Of a DNA stretch of 64,000 nt, positions 1 to 8,512 are shown in pieces; position 1 is the stretch's first letter; each line of letters begins with the position of its first letter. The stretch comes from Methylobacterium brachythecii (GTDB taxonomy: Bacteria > Pseudomonadota > Alphaproteobacteria > Rhizobiales > Beijerinckiaceae), in NCBI RefSeq assembly GCF_014196345.1, contig NZ_JACIDN010000012.1, forward strand, positions 1 to 64,000, in the 5' to 3' direction. Position numbers and translations under genes: made by a program. The notes under the pieces are model-generated. The model was not told where the DNA came from, did not search any database, and saw only the letters and a list, made by a program, of their open reading frames with translations.

Positions 1-92
1 GCGGGCACGGACCTCAGGGGAATACGGTGAGGTTCGCTTCGTCATGGCTCCATCCTCTCAAGAATTAGAGCCTCCGGGAAACCCAGCGCGGT

Positions 93-300
93 TCAATCTG
101 CAGCGACCCGGCAGGTGCATAGGCAACGACAAGCGGCTGCGAGGCAAGATGGACTCGGCGAAGCCGGGCTTCGCCAGATCGAGCAGCACCCGGTCCTGCG
201 GGCGCTTCGGGCCGGCGAGCGAGGGTCCGGCCTCGCCCATGTCGAGCTCGAGCGTGTCGGTGAAGACCGGATCGGGCGTAGTGGCCTTGCGCCACATGCC
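93..300 (-). pseudogene. Aconitase (acnA) remnant with internal deletion
   Basis: Two pieces of an aconitase gene joined out of frame, in the same orientation as the intact acnA in this window. Bases 149-300 align with 6846-6997 of the intact gene and read like its [18 protein letters not shown] segment. Bases 95-148 align with 6344-6397, the [13 protein letters not shown] segment. The offset between the pieces differs by 448 bp, which is not a multiple of three, so the join is both a deletion and a frameshift. Similarity stops abruptly near 300. Many differences fall at third codon positions, so this looks like a decayed paralog or transferred copy, not a recent duplication. It cannot encode aconitase. 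Confidence 0.85.
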
Positions 301-517: not shown

Positions 518-859
518 ATGGCGAGCTTGAGCATCCGGATCGATCTGGCGCCGGACAATCGTGTCGGCCCCGGCAAGATCCAATTGCTGGAGATGATCGC
601 CGAGCACGGCTCGATCTCGGCGGCGGGCCGGGCGCTCGGCATGTCCTATCGCCGGGCCTGGATGCTGGTGGAGGCCATGAACAAGGGTTTCGGTCAGCCG
701 GTGGTCGAGGCGCAGATCGGCGGCAAGGCCGGGGGCGGGGCCAAACTCTCGACGTTCGGCGCGGATCTCGTTGCGCATTACCGGGCGATCGAGCGGGCTG
801 CCGAGAAAGCCGCCCTGCCCTTCCTGTCGCGGTTGGCTCCCGGGACGGTTCAAGGCTGA
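518..859 (+). CDS. ModE N-terminal-type winged-helix regulator, single domain
   Basis: A 113-residue protein made almost entirely of the LysR-like winged helix-turn-helix found at the N terminus of molybdate regulator ModE. Visible landmarks are GPGKIQLLEMIAEHGSISAA (first helices and recognition turn), GMSYRRAWMLVEAMN and the wing with GGKAGGGAKLS. The C-terminal TOBE/Mop molybdate-binding domains of full ModE (about 260 residues) are absent, so it either binds DNA without sensing or senses through a partner. The ATG at 518 is chosen because homology starts there; 47 upstream codons in frame look non-coding. Two TATA-type inverted repeats nearby (896-917, 2227-2250) resemble ModE boxes and are its obvious candidate targets. 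Confidence 0.85.
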   Translation: MASLSIRIDLAPDNRVGPGKIQLLEMIAEHGSISAAGRALGMSYRRAWMLVEAMNKGFGQPVVEAQIGGKAGGGAKLSTFGADLVAHYRAIERAAEKAALPFLSRLAPGTVQG

Positions 860-895
860 CCCCCCTGGTCAAGTCGGTGCGATTGCGGCAGGTTG

Positions 896-917
896 GCTAT
901 ATCCAAATGGATATAGC
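896..917. promoter_or_regulatory. ModE-box-like perfect inverted repeat upstream of the DUF2325 gene
   Basis: GCTATATCC-AAAT-GGATATAGC is a perfect 9-bp inverted repeat ending 17 bases before the GTG start of the next gene. The right half read on the minus strand is CGCTATAT, which matches the CGnTATA half-site style of known ModE/Mo-box operators. Its position would overlap the promoter or leader and so suits repression. The link to the regulator just upstream is inferred. Confidence 0.65.
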
Positions 918-934
918 GACTGCTGAGAAGCCTC

Positions 935-2170
935 GTGTCTCATACCACCCATCAAGACGGACCGGCCCTGCGTGCCCTCGCCGCGAGCTTCGGCCGTCCC
1001 GCCTTCGTTCCGGCCGATCTCGAGACCGAAGACAGGGCCCGCGACAAGATCTGGGATCTCGCCGAGACGCTGCATTGCTCGATCGTCGGCACCTGTCTGA
1101 CCATCGCCGACGGACGGACCCTGCTCGCGAAGCTCGGCGTGCCGGATGCGCGCACCATCAGCGAGCATCACCTGCACGGGCAGGTCGTGCATCTCGCCGG
1201 GCGCCGTGAGGGCGGTGGCAAGCTGCTCCAGAAACTGCTCGATCGCCGGCACGAGCGCGAGATCCGCCGATTTGATGCCGCGCGCACAAATGCGGAAGTT
1301 CAGGCCCTGTGGCAAGAATCCCTAGAGGGCGGCGAGATTCCGGGCGCTTACTGGGCGGCGATCACGCATCCGGCGACGGATTGGGCGCTGATCCAGGACA
1401 TCTTCGGCGAGGTGCACATGCTCTCGCACCTCGTCGGTCAATCGAACCGGGCCGATATCCGGCGGGTGCGCCAGCTCGAAACCGAGCTCGCTCAGCGCGA
1501 CGAAACCATCACGGCGCAGGAGCAGCGCATCCGTGAGCTAATGGAGCAGCGCGACGGCCTCGGTGCCAGGAACCGGTCGATCGCGGCGCAGCAGGCCATT
1601 GCGGCGGCGGCAGGCCAGACCGTGCGAGAGCCGTTCAAGGCCCCGCGCAGTCTAGAACAGCGCCTGGCGCGCGAGCAGGCGCATGTCGAGGCTCTGGAGC
1701 AGAAGGTGGCGACCCTGGTGCAGGCGTCCGGCCGCCTCAGCTTGGAACTCGAAGCCGAGATCGCGAGACGGCGCGCGGTGGAAACGGAGCTCGCCGCGCT
1801 CGAAACCGCGTTCGAGACGCCCGGCGACGAGGCTGCCGAACCGTCTGTCGCCGCAATGCACCTCGAAGGGCGCACGCTGCTCTATGTCGGTGGACGCCCG
1901 CGGCAGGTGGCGAATCTGCGCCGGTTCACACGCAAACATGGCGGCGAGTTGCTCAGCCACGATGGCGGCGTCGAGGACAGCCTCGGCCTCCTCGCCGGGC
2001 TGGTCGGCCGCAGCGATCTCGTGCTGTTTCCGGTCGAGTGCGTCAGCCACGAGGCGACCGGGTTGGTCAAACGCTTCTGCGAAGCGGGCGGCAAGAGCTT
2101 CTGTCCGGTGCGCAGCGCCAGCTTCGCGAGTTTCGTCCAGGCGGTGATGCCGGCGCGCGTCGGCGGCTGA
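935..2170 (+). CDS. DUF2325 domain protein with coiled-coil middle
   Basis: A 411-residue cytoplasmic protein. The last roughly 95 residues (starting about RTLLYVGGRPRQVANLRRF) form the DUF2325 domain, whose biochemical role is unknown. Residues about 165-285 are rich in Glu, Gln, Arg and Leu and should form a coiled coil. The first 150 residues carry conserved-looking Cys and His (HCSIVGTC, SEHHLHG, GEVHMLSHLVG) that could bind a metal; that is inference. The GTG at 935 follows a purine-rich TGAGAAG and gives a natural N terminus. It lies 75 bp after the ModE-like gene, with a perfect TATA-type inverted repeat between them, so control by that regulator is likely. Confidence 0.75.
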   Translation: MSHTTHQDGPALRALAASFGRPAFVPADLETEDRARDKIWDLAETLHCSIVGTCLTIADGRTLLAKLGVPDARTISEHHLHGQVVHLAGRREGGGKLLQKLLDRRHEREIRRFDAARTNAEVQALWQESLEGGEIPGAYWAAITHPATDWALIQDIFGEVHMLSHLVGQSNRADIRRVRQLETELAQRDETITAQEQRIRELMEQRDGLGARNRSIAAQQAIAAAAGQTVREPFKAPRSLEQRLAREQAHVEALEQKVATLVQASGRLSLELEAEIARRRAVETELAALETAFETPGDEAAEPSVAAMHLEGRTLLYVGGRPRQVANLRRFTRKHGGELLSHDGGVEDSLGLLAGLVGRSDLVLFPVECVSHEATGLVKRFCEAGGKSFCPVRSASFASFVQAVMPARVGG

Positions 2171-2226
2171 TCCACACCCGCGCGTTGATGACAGCGACGT
2201 GCGCTGCCGCACCACGCGAGGTGCAT

Positions 2227-2250
2227 CGATATAGTCGAACGGGTATAGCG
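2227..2250. promoter_or_regulatory. Second ModE-box-like inverted repeat, upstream of the SMP-30-like gene
   Basis: CGATATAG and GTATAGCG face each other; both halves read CGnTATA. The two TATA cores are 14 bp apart start to start, exactly as in the site at 896-917. It is flanked by GGTGC and GCACC at 2220 and 2250. It lies 58 bp before the ATG at 2309. The shared spacing makes chance less likely. The assignment to the ModE-like protein is inferred. Confidence 0.5.
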
Positions 2251-2308: not shown

Positions 2309-3316
2309 ATGACATCACGTGAGTTCGACGGCCGCAGAGGGACGGCTCGACAGGCCGTGTCTTCGTCTCTCGCCGCGGCGGCCTTTTCATTGGCCTCCGC
2401 AATTCCCGCGACCGCCGCACCCGACACGTCCGCCCTCCCCGGCCAGGCCGTCTTTCCCGAGAGCATCACATCGACTGCCGACGGCACACTCTATGTCAGC
2501 AGCTTCGTCGCGGGCGGCGTGATCCGGGTAAAGCCCGGTGCCAAGGAGGGCGAGGTCTGGATCAAGCCGGCGGCCTTCGGCACGCGCTCGACCTTCGGCC
2601 TGCTCGCCGACGAAAAGTCGAACACGCTCTGGCTCTGTTCGAACGATCTCTCGGCGCTCGGCGTGCAGGGCCCCAACGAGGAGAAGGGCGCGGCGCTCAA
2701 GGGCTTCGACCTGAAGACCGGCGAGGGCAAGTTCAGCGTCCCCCTCCCCGTCTCGCCGGCCATTTGCAACGACATCGCGCTGGGAGCCGACGGCTCGGCC
2801 TATGTCACCAACACGCTGGGCCCGCAGATCTTCCGCCTGAAGCCGGGTGCCAAGGCGCTTGAAACCTGGAAGACCGATCCGCTCTTCGCCATCGAGGGCA
2901 ACGAAGCCGGGCTCGACGGCATCGCTTTCGGAAAGGACGGTAACCTCTACGTCAACACCTTCACCAAGGCGAATTTGTTTCGCATCGGCGTGAAGGACGG
3001 CGAGGCCGGCAAGGTCACGGCCCTGAAGCCTTCGCGTCCCGTCGTGCTGGCGGATGCCCTGCGACCGCTCCCCGATGGCTCGTTCGTGATGGCTGAGGGT
3101 GGCGGCAGCGTCGAGCGGGTGACCTTCGAGGGCGACACCGCGAGGATCGAGACGATCATGGGCGGCGTCGCTGGCGGCGTCACCGGCGTGACCACGGTGG
3201 GCTCGACGATCTGGTTCTCCGAGGGTCAGCTCGCCGTCATCACCGATCCGTCGAAGAAGGGCACCAAGCCTGAGCTGCCGTTCAAGGCGTATTCCGTGCC
3301 ACTGCCGGCGCACTGA
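2309..3316 (+). CDS. SMP-30/gluconolactonase-like beta-propeller protein, exported
   Basis: A 335-residue protein with an N-terminal export signal (Arg-rich start, Ala/Ser/Leu core, cleavage near ATAAPDT). The rest shows repeated propeller strands of the SMP-30/Gluconolactonase/LRE type, for example TADGTLYVSSF, GADGSAYVTNTLG and GKDGNLYVNTF. Members hydrolyse sugar lactones or act as periplasmic propellers; the substrate cannot be told from sequence. An AGGAG at 2293-2297 lies rather far (11 bases) from the ATG. It precedes the sugar dehydrogenase gene by 68 bp on the same strand. A dehydrogenase that makes a lactone plus a lactonase would be a sensible periplasmic pair, but that is inference. 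Confidence 0.75.
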   Translation: MTSREFDGRRGTARQAVSSSLAAAAFSLASAIPATAAPDTSALPGQAVFPESITSTADGTLYVSSFVAGGVIRVKPGAKEGEVWIKPAAFGTRSTFGLLADEKSNTLWLCSNDLSALGVQGPNEEKGAALKGFDLKTGEGKFSVPLPVSPAICNDIALGADGSAYVTNTLGPQIFRLKPGAKALETWKTDPLFAIEGNEAGLDGIAFGKDGNLYVNTFTKANLFRIGVKDGEAGKVTALKPSRPVVLADALRPLPDGSFVMAEGGGSVERVTFEGDTARIETIMGGVAGGVTGVTTVGSTIWFSEGQLAVITDPSKKGTKPELPFKAYSVPLPAH

Positions 3317-3384
3317 TTCAGGCGGCGATCCTTCGAGGGGGCTCGATGGTTTTCCCTGGAACCGAACCTTTGAGGAGAGCGCCC

Positions 3385-5163
3385 ATGCGTTCCGCCCATT
3401 CGTCGACGTCCCACCTCGTTCTTGCCCTGGCGGCCTCTCTTATGACGGGCGTAGCCGCCTCCACCGGAGCGCAGGCTGCCGGGGCAGCTTCCAAATGCTC
3501 CGGCGATAATGGCGGCATCAGCCTGCCGGAGGGTTTTTGCGCCAGCATCTTCGCCGACAATATCGGCCATGCCCGCCAGATGGCGGTGGCGCCTGACGGC
3601 ACGCTCTACGTGAACACCTGGAGCGGCCGCTACTACAAGAACGACACCCCTCCCCCCGGCGGCTTCCTCGTCGCGCTCAAGGACAAGGACGGCGACGGCA
3701 ACGCCGAACTGGTCGAGCGCTTCGGCGAGAGCGTCGCGGATGGCGGCCATGGCGGCACCGGGCTCGCGCTCCACAAGGACGCGGTCTACGCCGAGAGCAA
3801 CGACCGCATCATGCGCTATCCGCTAGCCGAGGGTGAGGTCGCCCCGAAGGTCAAAGGCGAGACGGTGGTCTCTGGCTTCCCGCTGACCGGCGACCACCCG
3901 ATGCATCCCTTCGCCATCACGAAAGATGGCGGGATCCTCTCGGGCATGGGCTCGGCGACCAATGCCTGCGAGGTCAAGAACCGCATGCCGGGCTCGCCGG
4001 GCGTCACGCCCTGTACCGAGAAGGAGACCCGTGCCGGCATCTGGCGCTATGACGCCGCCAAGACCGGCCAAGTCCTCTCGGCCAAGGAGCGCTACGCCGC
4101 GGGCATCCGCAACGGCGAGGGCATCGCCATCGATGCCAAGGGCCGGATCTTCGTGACCCAGCACGGCCGCGACCAGCTGCACGAGAACTGGCCCAAGCTC
4201 TACACGGCGAAGCAGGGCTTCGAGCTGCCCTCCGAGGAGGTGGTCGAGCTGAAACCGGGCGGCGATTACGGCTGGCCGGAATGCTACTACGACCCGACAC
4301 AGAAGAAGCTCGTCCTCGCGCCCGAGTACGGTGGCGACGGCGGCAAGAAGGTCGGGCTCTGCGCCGATCGCCTCGCTCCCGTGGCGGCCTTCCCGGCCCA
4401 CTGGGCGCCCAATGACATGAAGTTCTATACCAGCAAGGGCACCGAGACAGCCTTCCCGAAGGCCTATCAGGACGGCGCTTTCATCGCCTTCCACGGCTCC
4501 TGGAACCGCGCGCCCGGCCCGCAGGGCGGCTACAGCGTGGTGTTCCAGCCCTTTAAGGACGGCAAGGCCTCGGGCGACTACGTCGTGTTCGCGGACGGTT
4601 TCGCCGGCGCGGTCAAGGAGCCGGGCCGGGCCGACCATCGCCCGTCCGGCATCGCTGTCGGGCCCGATGGCGCGCTCTACATCTCGGACGACGTGAAGGG
4701 CCGGATCTGGCGCGTGACCTACCAGGGCGGCAATGCCAGTGCCCCGGTCTCGGCCGCACCGGCTCCGAAGGCCCCGGCCACGGCCTCGAAGGACGAGCTG
4801 CCGCCGGAGGGCGTTCACCCGGATGCCGGCCGCGCGGTCGCCAGCCTTCCGGTTCCCGAGGGGTCGTCGAAGGAGCAGGTCGCGCTCGGCGAGCGCGTCT
4901 TCCATGGCGAGCAGGGGGGCGCCACCTGCGGCGGCTGCCACGGATCCGATGCCAAGGGCTCGCCCGTCGGAGCCGATCTCACCACCGGCCAATGGCTCTG
5001 GAGCGACGGCAGCCTGAAGGGAATCGAGGCCGTCGTCACCAACGGCGTCCCCGAGCCGAAGGCCGCCGGCGGCGCCATGCCGCCGATGGGCGGCGTCGAG
5101 CTGTCGCAAGCCGACCTGAAGGCGGTGTCGGCTTATGTGTGGGCGCTTGGGCAGCAGAAGTAG
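3385..5163 (+). CDS. Sorbosone/glucose dehydrogenase-type propeller fused to cytochrome c
   Basis: A 592-residue periplasmic oxidoreductase. A signal peptide (core LVLALAASLMTGVAAS) precedes a PQQ-type sugar dehydrogenase propeller of the GSDH/sorbosone dehydrogenase family (residues about 40-450; HGRDQLHENWP, GGDYGWPECYY, AFHGSWNRAPG). After an Ala/Pro linker comes a class I cytochrome c domain with the heme motif CGGCH (Cys515, Cys518, His519) and a Met ligand in MPPMGG near 565-568. The fusion suggests oxidation of an aldose or aldehyde with direct electron transfer to the respiratory chain. The ATG at 3385 is preferred to in-frame 3346 because GAGGAGAG sits just upstream. Heme attachment would depend on the Ccm proteins encoded downstream. 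Confidence 0.85.
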   Translation: MRSAHSSTSHLVLALAASLMTGVAASTGAQAAGAASKCSGDNGGISLPEGFCASIFADNIGHARQMAVAPDGTLYVNTWSGRYYKNDTPPPGGFLVALKDKDGDGNAELVERFGESVADGGHGGTGLALHKDAVYAESNDRIMRYPLAEGEVAPKVKGETVVSGFPLTGDHPMHPFAITKDGGILSGMGSATNACEVKNRMPGSPGVTPCTEKETRAGIWRYDAAKTGQVLSAKERYAAGIRNGEGIAIDAKGRIFVTQHGRDQLHENWPKLYTAKQGFELPSEEVVELKPGGDYGWPECYYDPTQKKLVLAPEYGGDGGKKVGLCADRLAPVAAFPAHWAPNDMKFYTSKGTETAFPKAYQDGAFIAFHGSWNRAPGPQGGYSVVFQPFKDGKASGDYVVFADGFAGAVKEPGRADHRPSGIAVGPDGALYISDDVKGRIWRVTYQGGNASAPVSAAPAPKAPATASKDELPPEGVHPDAGRAVASLPVPEGSSKEQVALGERVFHGEQGGATCGGCHGSDAKGSPVGADLTTGQWLWSDGSLKGIEAVVTNGVPEPKAAGGAMPPMGGVELSQADLKAVSAYVWALGQQK

Positions 5164-5344: not shown

Positions 5345-8044
<2,700 letters not shown>

Positions 8045-8512
8045 GGCGATCGGAACCCTTAGCTGGCGGTTGTCGAACACGCGCAGGCATAACCTGCGCC
8101 ACGAAAGGTGTTCGGCTGGAAACGCTCAAAAAGAGCGCGCGCCGCCCCGGGGGTGCCCGGGTAGGGTGGTGCGCGAGAGGCGATTTGGACGCCCTGGAGG
8201 TCGCGCGGCGCAGCCTGGCCGCCATATAGAACAGTTCGAAACTTCACGCCACCGGGACCGATGACAGCTCGGCTTGGCTGTCGTTCTGATCGGCACCGGT
8301 TTCCGAGGGGATTCGACGCAGCCCGAGAGATTGCGTAGCGAGCCCCGATATTCACAACGCTCCTCACGCTGAGGGCACGCCCGAGCGCTGCTCCGAGGCG
8401 CCCTAGGCAGGTTGGATCGGCGTTGCGCGGTGCTTCGAGGCCGCGGTCGCGGCATCTCGGCATGAAGAGCGTCGGGGGGGCCGGCGGTGGGCAGAATGGA
8501 AACCGGACACGC
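8045..8512. other. Divergent intergenic region between acnA and ccmA
   Basis: Holds the leaders of two divergent genes. A 7-bp hairpin, GCGCAGG-CATAA-CCTGCGC (8081-8099), lies in the acnA leader. No RNA gene or conserved riboswitch was recognised. Several short open frames here lack a start signal or a recognisable protein. Confidence 0.5.

Follow-up and report, generated by a model that had tools for sequence, protein, structure and literature searches.

A probable ModE-type molybdenum-limitation regulon around a DUF2325 gene of Methylobacterium brachythecii

The first 64,000 nucleotides of contig NZ_JACIDN010000012.1 of Methylobacterium brachythecii (assembly GCF_014196345.1; hereafter the window, which is the start of contig 12 in a genome of 5.40 Mb) begin with a small modE-like regulator gene, a gene for a protein with a DUF2325 domain, and two inverted repeats. 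One repeat precedes the DUF2325 gene, and the other precedes a pair of genes that a sequence-only reading of positions 518 to 2,250 had labelled as sugar-lactone and sugar-dehydrogenase genes. What does the regulator control through these repeats, and is the DUF2325 protein its target or, as that reading proposed, the second half of a metal- or redox-responsive switch? The account that we favour, with a probability of about 0.74, is a ModE-type molybdenum-limitation regulon made up of a one-domain ModE protein (ModES), its Mo-boxes and a set of shortage genes that it represses. Coordinates are collected in Table 1; genomes are denoted by G numbers and loci by L numbers.

Two Mo-boxes beside a one-domain ModE

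Site 1 reads GGCTATATCCAAATGGATATAGCG, with TATA cores beginning at 898 and 912, and site 2 reads CGATATAGTCGAACGGGTATAGCG, with cores beginning at 2230 and 2244. The cores are exactly 14 base pairs (bp) apart in both, which confirms the identical geometry first seen by eye. The CGnTATA half-site claimed at the same time holds for three of the four halves and fails for the left half of site 1 (GGCTATA, not CGCTATA), giving site 1 one mismatch to CGNTATA-N10-TATANCG and site 2 none. Within the 64 kb, exactly these two sites match that pattern with two mismatches or fewer, against 0.14 expected from shuffled sequences.

Could the palindromes have arisen by chance, or as a repeat artefact? The whole genome contains 35 places with up to two mismatches, against 36 for a reversed-pattern control, and therefore few sites stand out in this genome. 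With zero or one mismatch there are four places against two for the control: the two window sites, one site before an operon with LysR and formate dehydrogenase genes, and one inside a frame of 398 amino acids (aa). The last (C2:269820), the 24-mer of which, or its complement, is found identical in G003, G008 and G033, was dismissed because of its position inside that frame and its scores of 3.1 and 8.1 bits with our two matrices. The first of these matrices includes sites near DUF2325 and sites of relatives outside the genus; the second, independent matrix was trained on 34 relatives' sites near modA/modES, with no DUF2325 site and nothing from the window. By the independent matrix, site 1 scores 32.8 bits and site 2 26.8 bits, while the next best stretch in the 64 kb reaches 5.3 bits. 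Chance is rejected by the shuffles (two sites found, both at this one locus, where 0.14 were expected), by the independent matrix and by conservation (a box before 24 of 24 scorable DUF2325 copies in the genus), and we consider it vanishingly improbable.

The ModE consensus of Escherichia coli is ATCGNTATATA-N6-TATATANCGAT (PMC545781, in excerpt), and the window palindromes have the identical half-site in the same 14-bp register. Relatives carry the same palindrome before modA or modABC (L095, L108, L110), moeA and modES. The shared geometry and the position before molybdenum genes of relatives therefore identify the window sites, by their sequence, as Mo-boxes, a known element; the novelty initially ascribed to the repeats is withdrawn, their geometry being that of the canonical ModE consensus as excerpted from PMC545781.

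Genus loci were counted as boxed when a site of at least 16 bits lay within about 400 bp upstream, with one count per gene copy, and both matrices agree on the result. A box precedes DUF2325 in 24/24 copies, MoeA in 9/9, a second ModA-type protein (ModA2) in 9/10, an Ahr-type aldehyde reductase in 15/17, the LysR gene of the LysR-formate dehydrogenase (FDH) operon in 8/14, ModES in 24/47, ModA in 15/37, the SGL-like gene (the first gene behind site 2) in 4/10 and ModB in 1/11; among the remaining genes of these loci, the background is 9 of 409. None was found before GSDH (0/7), Mop (0/22), FDH (0/14), HPP (0/5) or ModC (0/5), as expected, because these are inner operon genes. The DUF2325 count includes L091 and L092, which are remnants, and G021 and G116, which contribute two copies each; it leaves out L076, which has less than 150 bp upstream (with a 30-bit site there), as well as L172, L178 and L180, the start of which is missing; in the SGL-like count, one G004 gene is counted twice (L082, L182). 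The sequence-only reading had set conservation upstream of orthologues beforehand as its refuting test. The repeat was found before every scorable DUF2325 copy of the genus, and the SGL-like genes of G110 (23 bits) and G004 (19 bits) are likewise preceded by the second site, so that the proposed ModE-like regulon and its two sites of shared geometry stand, the sites being Mo-boxes conserved upstream of orthologues.

The regulator carries an HTH_1 domain (32.6 bits, Pfam cut-off 26.6), and Pfam and NCBIfam-type profile scans found no TOBE/Mop molybdate-binding domain in its 113 aa, in agreement with the early description of a one-domain ModE-type protein without a molybdate-binding part. It shares 44-87% identity with 12 relatives, with 28 columns invariant, and ModES is present in 78 of 111 genus genomes. 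A one-domain ModE (ModES) was reportedly described in Agrobacterium tumefaciens by Hoffmann et al. in 2016. The window protein is, on its sequence, of this known kind; it does not represent the undescribed sensor-less ModE that had been suspected, as one-domain ModE proteins are already described (PMC545781, in excerpt).

From the boxes, their conservation, the gene identities at the cut-offs given and the co-occurrence of genes, all of which are observed, we infer that ModES binds, that it represses and does not activate, that molybdenum is the signal and that the purpose is to spare the metal, together with any activity ascribed to the DUF2325 protein. In the regulon that we propose, ModES would bind the Mo-boxes and, as long as molybdenum or molybdenum cofactor is sufficient, would most likely repress by covering the promoter start region. 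The repressed targets would be the DUF2325 gene and the SGL-like/GSDH-cytochrome c operon, with the LysR-formate dehydrogenase operon and, weakly, modA as further targets elsewhere in the genome. When molybdenum is short these targets would be turned on and molybdenum-free enzymes would replace molybdoenzymes: the Mo/W enzyme would give way to a metal-free NAD formate dehydrogenase, and the DUF2325 protein, with its predicted metal-binding His/Cys residues, would act as an effector in metal shortage.

DUF2325 promoters beyond the genus

Among named genomes, the closest relatives of the DUF2325 gene are those of Methylobacterium; carriers of the cluster include Methylorubrum thiocyanatum DSM 11490, Methylorubrum rhodesianum and Methylobacterium sp. 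C25. A collection of named genomes scanned with the DUF2325 alignment yielded 346 relatives, and the 80 that scored best were retained (21 from the Methylobacterium group and 59 others); as the top of the 346, these loci lean to the close subfamily. By the independent matrix, a box of at least 16 bits lies in the roughly 424 bp upstream of DUF2325 in 21/21 Methylobacterium-group loci and in 53/59 of the others (55/59 at 13 bits); one of the misses, L223, has a 35-bit site about 480 bp upstream, beyond the scanned stretch. Permuted matrices reached 16 bits in 0 of 420 scans of the Methylobacterium group and in 1 of 1,180 scans of the others (1 of 1,600 overall). The 59 other alphaproteobacterial loci include members of Rhizobium, Bradyrhizobium, Tardiphaga, Azospirillum, Reyranella, Rhodopila, Beijerinckia, Ancylobacter and Hyphomicrobium. 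Their fetched flanks (at most 7 kb) hold a molybdenum-related gene in 43 cases and a ModE-type helix-turn-helix (HTH) in 22.

Besides the lack of a genome-wide excess of sites, several observations weigh against a ModE regulon. TIGR00637 (ModE_repress) matches the regulator with an E value of 1.3e-27 and 95.8 bits, slightly below its cut-off of 98.5, a cut-off passed by none of the 111 genus genomes. An own box is missing from 22/37 copies of ModA, 23/47 of ModES, 6/14 of the LysR leader, 14/14 of FDH and 6/10 of the SGL-like gene, the latter six all located after DUF2325. No Mo-box was found in the 517 bp available upstream of the window modES, and the genome's own modA promoter (L129:8029-8052) has one intact and one decayed half-site, scoring 13-14 bits; the standard target is therefore weak in this genome, and in this strain the uptake of molybdate may have escaped regulation by ModES. 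Scores of 16 bits or more are also reached in 400-bp windows elsewhere in the named loci (18/196 and 28/554), because these loci are rich in further Mo-boxes. ModE can also activate, and repression is an assumption here. Finally, in a sample of the order, where 44 of 397 genomes match the DUF2325 alignment model, a box precedes only 4 of the 32 full-length copies besides that of the window.

The unboxed window modES would also be in keeping with a different regulator of similar specificity, which would own the palindromes and make the adjoining ModES incidental, and so would the boxed DUF2325 genes without ModES nearby in G070, G078 and many other-genus loci. Nevertheless, the same palindrome, equal to the ModE consensus, stands before modA, modABC, moeA and modES in relatives. 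Moreover, DUF2325 is present in 23 of 111 genus genomes, of which 22 have ModES, and in the 23rd (G030) the DUF2325 gene begins at a contig edge, its first codons resembling the end of ModES. Another owner of the sites is therefore very unlikely in our view, and ModES is retained as the candidate regulator.

A tree of 115 DUF2325 copies (quick search; labels by the first matrix at 13 bits or more; 14 partial rows dropped) reconciles the named loci with the order sample. One branch of 83 rows, with a Shimodaira-Hasegawa approximate likelihood-ratio (SH-aLRT) support of 97, contains 80 rows with a box, whereas none of the 32 rows outside it has one. Mo-box control therefore belongs, as judged from promoter sequences, to a single DUF2325 subfamily. 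Inside the branch, L229, L240 and L244 have no box in the scanned stretch. A class sample gave matches in 6 of 385 genomes, the window's included, and of the other 6 loci only L264 carries a box. The uncharacterised DUF2325 family can thereby be tested as part of the molybdenum response: in one of its branches a Mo-box is present in nearly every promoter examined, across Methylobacterium, Rhizobium, Bradyrhizobium, Azospirillum, Reyranella, Rhodopila and others, which suggests that the boxed DUF2325 helps cells to cope with scarce molybdenum.

In G027, G016 and G019 the box is kept (30, 36 and 23 bits by the first matrix) while DUF2325 is reduced to remnants; boxes retained beside such remnants suggest that part of the genus has lost the gene recently. 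DUF2325 remnants that keep their Mo-box were seen at L091, L092 and L093, and at L092 the start of DUF2325 merges with the GSDH gene end, the arrangement that a deletion would leave. In most of 9 DUF2325 promoters compared by eye, a CTGGYCAAG-like stretch (window positions about 862-870) recurs some 25-30 bp ahead of the Mo-box, even where the upstream gene is not ModES (L173, L169), and is maybe part of the promoter.

The DUF2325 protein as partner or target of ModES

PF10087 matches the long DUF2325 protein of the window with 54.5 bits (gathering score 33.6), which bears out the label it had been given. Among 18 full-length copies, H47, C48, C54, H81, H145, H161 and H165 are invariant in the first part and H342, D343, C369, H372 and C382 in the DUF2325 domain; H47, C48, C54, H81, H161 and H165 are still invariant in 49 first-part sequences. 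These conserved His/Cys residues are predicted to bind metal. The first domain is modelled as all-helical (pLDDT 93, pTM 0.87), and the model of the whole protein has a pTM of 0.42. The latter has no match in the PDB at E <= 0.001, its structural matches being restricted to residues of about 309-410, which are Rossmann-like (Z up to 9.7). The model of the His/Cys domain also gave no PDB match at E <= 0.001 (best Z 3.7), so that this model-based search indicates neither a new nor an old fold. A sequence search of solved structures returned no DUF2325 relative, with coiled-coil or weak matches only, and a Pfam scan of the 49 His/Cys-domain members gave only scattered weak matches.

Gene context supports the link to metals that the sequence-only reading had drawn for DUF2325. 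In one family outside the Mo-box branch (f11; 12 rows, L295-L306), nikR lies in the fetched stretch in 9/12 cases, and the gene order runs from a 180-aa uncharacterised protein through DUF2325/nikR to a DUF4198 protein; the NikR of L296 passes the curated cut-offs. Ahead of the nik-type DUF2325 operon, a search for a NikR operator returned no clear site, the candidates having 3-5 mismatches. Other box-less copies neighbour ferritin (L291, L308), Fur (L267) or TonB-ExbB-ExbD (L080), while several further loci outside the branch have no metal gene in the short stretch examined. On the basis of gene neighbourhood, a general metal-shortage role of DUF2325 appears plausible. More tentatively, and with less than even confidence, we propose that the long form constitutes a new family of metal-shortage proteins, in which an undescribed all-helical His/Cys domain is joined by long helices to a Rossmann-like domain. 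Such proteins would be placed under different metal regulators in different branches (ModES and the Mo-box here, NikR in another branch, with Fur or ferritin as neighbours elsewhere), would report or act on metal-cofactor status, and would possibly feed back on their cognate regulator. Of the DUF2325 passages found in open-licence literature, available as excerpts of their sources, none concerned molybdenum.

Two side observations concern the copies outside the Mo-box branch and the shorter forms. The nik-type operon of f11 is preceded by a well conserved stretch, the arms of which are inverted and of TCAAGT type. An ABM-type monooxygenase gene lies near DUF2325 in several families (L287-L290, L286, L316-L319, L085), and some of the DUF2325 forms in that setting are short, scarcely more than the DUF2325 domain.

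Does the DUF2325 protein act jointly with ModES, providing the metal or redox sensing that a one-domain ModE lacks? The two genes lie within 5 kb of each other in 19 of the 23 DUF2325-bearing genus genomes, a box directly precedes DUF2325, its His/Cys residues are invariant, and another DUF2325 branch adjoins NikR; all this would suit a two-part switch. Yet no DUF2325 match was obtained in 56 of the 78 genus genomes with ModES. ModES can therefore exist without DUF2325, whose role as an obligate partner is rejected, the dependence running the other way (ModES in 22/23 genomes with DUF2325). Similarly, a ModE-type HTH was found in the flanks of only 22 of the 59 other-genus loci, yet 53 of them have the box. 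NikR carries its own nickel site, and the Agrobacterium ModES is said to read cofactor status with its upstream gene dispensable. We accordingly regard the two-part switch put forward in the sequence-only reading as distinctly unlikely. The co-occurrence pattern fits a DUF2325 gene that behaves as a dependent target of ModES rather than as a needed partner, and is compatible with feedback by its product, which may occur where both genes are present. As to how a one-domain ModE reads molybdenum, a mechanism called not clear for Desulfovibrio in the excerpted text of PMC545781, there is now a concrete candidate, DUF2325, to be either included or excluded.

Further targets and known systems

The two genes behind site 2 probably form one operon, and GSDH has no own box in 7/7 genus copies. 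The first product remains below the cut-offs of SGL (21.9 against 26.3) and Vgb_lyase (30.4 against 50), and its "sugar-lactone" enzyme label was dropped on that account; the "sugar dehydrogenase" label of the second is upheld by GSDH (PF07995; 31.7 against 25), and this product ends in a cytochrome c domain (PF13442; 36 against 27). Site 2 has a counterpart at the equivalent position in L177 (23.2 bits, first matrix). It might nevertheless be unrelated to molybdenum economy, together with its operon, and be recent or non-functional, given that only three genus genomes (the window's, G110 and G004) have an own box before the SGL-like gene and that no enzyme activity is assigned to the SGL-like and GSDH products. 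Its score of 26.8 bits by the independent matrix argues otherwise, as do the boxes directly before SGL-like genes in Beijerinckia (L205, 25 bits; L207, 22 bits) and the six other genus loci in which the SGL-like gene follows DUF2325 and may share its box. We therefore think an unrelated site 2 rather unlikely and keep the operon among the candidate targets of ModES.

The third good site of the window genome (19.6 to 20.3 bits) lies before the genes for LysR, an NAD formate dehydrogenase and an HPP protein. This formate dehydrogenase (C5) is of the metal-free NAD type (NF005750/PRK07574, 707.8 bits against a cut-off of 329), and the genome also has a Mo/W-type enzyme (TIGR01591, 928.9 bits). 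The metal-free enzyme is found in 14 of 111 genus genomes, 11 of which have DUF2325 (Fisher p 7e-7, uncorrected for shared descent), and in 9 of the 14 a ModES gene is found no more than 5 kb from its own gene. Boxes also occur between ModES and a divergent 510-aa frame (L164, L171, L176), which scans as an aldehyde dehydrogenase in L164, and exact-match boxes stand in L106 and L142 before mobB-moeA or a neighbour, and ahead of a 106-aa frame located upstream of the Mo-FDH genes. By analogy, the pattern of targets suggests a molybdenum-sparing response: in Rhodobacter capsulatus, MopA/MopB repress anfA through a Mo-box when molybdate is present (PMC6925177, in excerpt). It further suggests that methylotrophs, governed by a molybdenum regulator, replace their molybdenum formate dehydrogenase by a metal-free enzyme, following the logic of alternative nitrogenases. 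As a side observation, a conserved protein of about 169 aa (c11) follows ModA and Mop in a Mo-box cluster at L077, L078, L079, L081, L165 and other loci; it looks exported by eye, and the L078 copy has no Pfam or NCBIfam match.

Regulator and element are thus of known kinds, while the open-licence literature searched yielded no description of this set of targets, DUF2325 foremost among them. ModES of Agrobacterium tumefaciens reportedly resembles the present system in having the DNA-binding domain only, in its Mo-boxes at target promoters and in being alphaproteobacterial; it differs in that DUF2325 and the SGL-like/GSDH genes, not modABC, are the adjoining genes and the strongest targets in the present case. 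The ModE/Mo-box pair of E. coli has identical half-sites and spacing (excerpt of PMC545781), but the E. coli type of regulator has molybdate-binding domains and its targets differ. With MopA/MopB and anfA of R. capsulatus the present system would share Mo-box repression of a molybdenum-free back-up enzyme, predicted here; the back-up is an Fe-nitrogenase there and would be a metal-free formate dehydrogenase plus the GSDH/cytochrome c protein here (PMC6925177, excerpted). The single-domain ModE of Desulfovibrio is likewise a lone DNA-binding domain, but its predicted operator is CGGTCACG-N14-CGTGACCG (PMC545781, in the part available). Campylobacter Cj1384, a short, Cys-rich DUF2325 protein encoded beside catalase, is comparable in its domain and in its control by a metalloregulator (PerR), but has an oxidative-stress setting and, at 104 aa, is too short for the helical His/Cys domain and the long helices (excerpt of PMC9426514).

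Table 1. Features at the start of the window and predicted parts of the DUF2325 protein
Feature	Position	Strand	Description
modES-like gene	518..859	+	113 aa; one-domain ModE-type winged-helix regulator; Pfam HTH_1 and TIGR00637 matches
Mo-box 1 (site 1)	895..918	.	near-perfect 24-bp palindrome; ends 16 bp before the DUF2325 start codon
Long-form DUF2325 protein	935..2170	+	411 aa; GTG start; PF10087
DUF2325 helical domain with conserved His/Cys	about 34-178 aa		predicted from alignment and model
DUF2325 long helices, likely coiled coil	about 150-293 aa		predicted from model
DUF2325 C-terminal Rossmann-like domain	315-403 aa		predicted from PF10087 and model
Mo-box 2 (site 2)	2227..2250	.	exact CGNTATA-N10-TATANCG match; 58 bp before the next gene
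Beta-propeller-like gene (SGL/Vgb/ScyE-like, all below cut-off)	2309..3316	+	alternative start 2390
GSDH-type gene with C-terminal cytochrome c domain	3346..5163	+	alternative start 3442
acnA-type gene	5345..8080	-	opposite strand, downstream of the GSDH/cytochrome c gene; presumably acnA

A second acnA-type match, absent from the matching loci L177 and L183, is present in the window at positions 10-300 (- strand), as a remnant with 55.7% identity over 97 aa to the acnA-type gene listed in Table 1.

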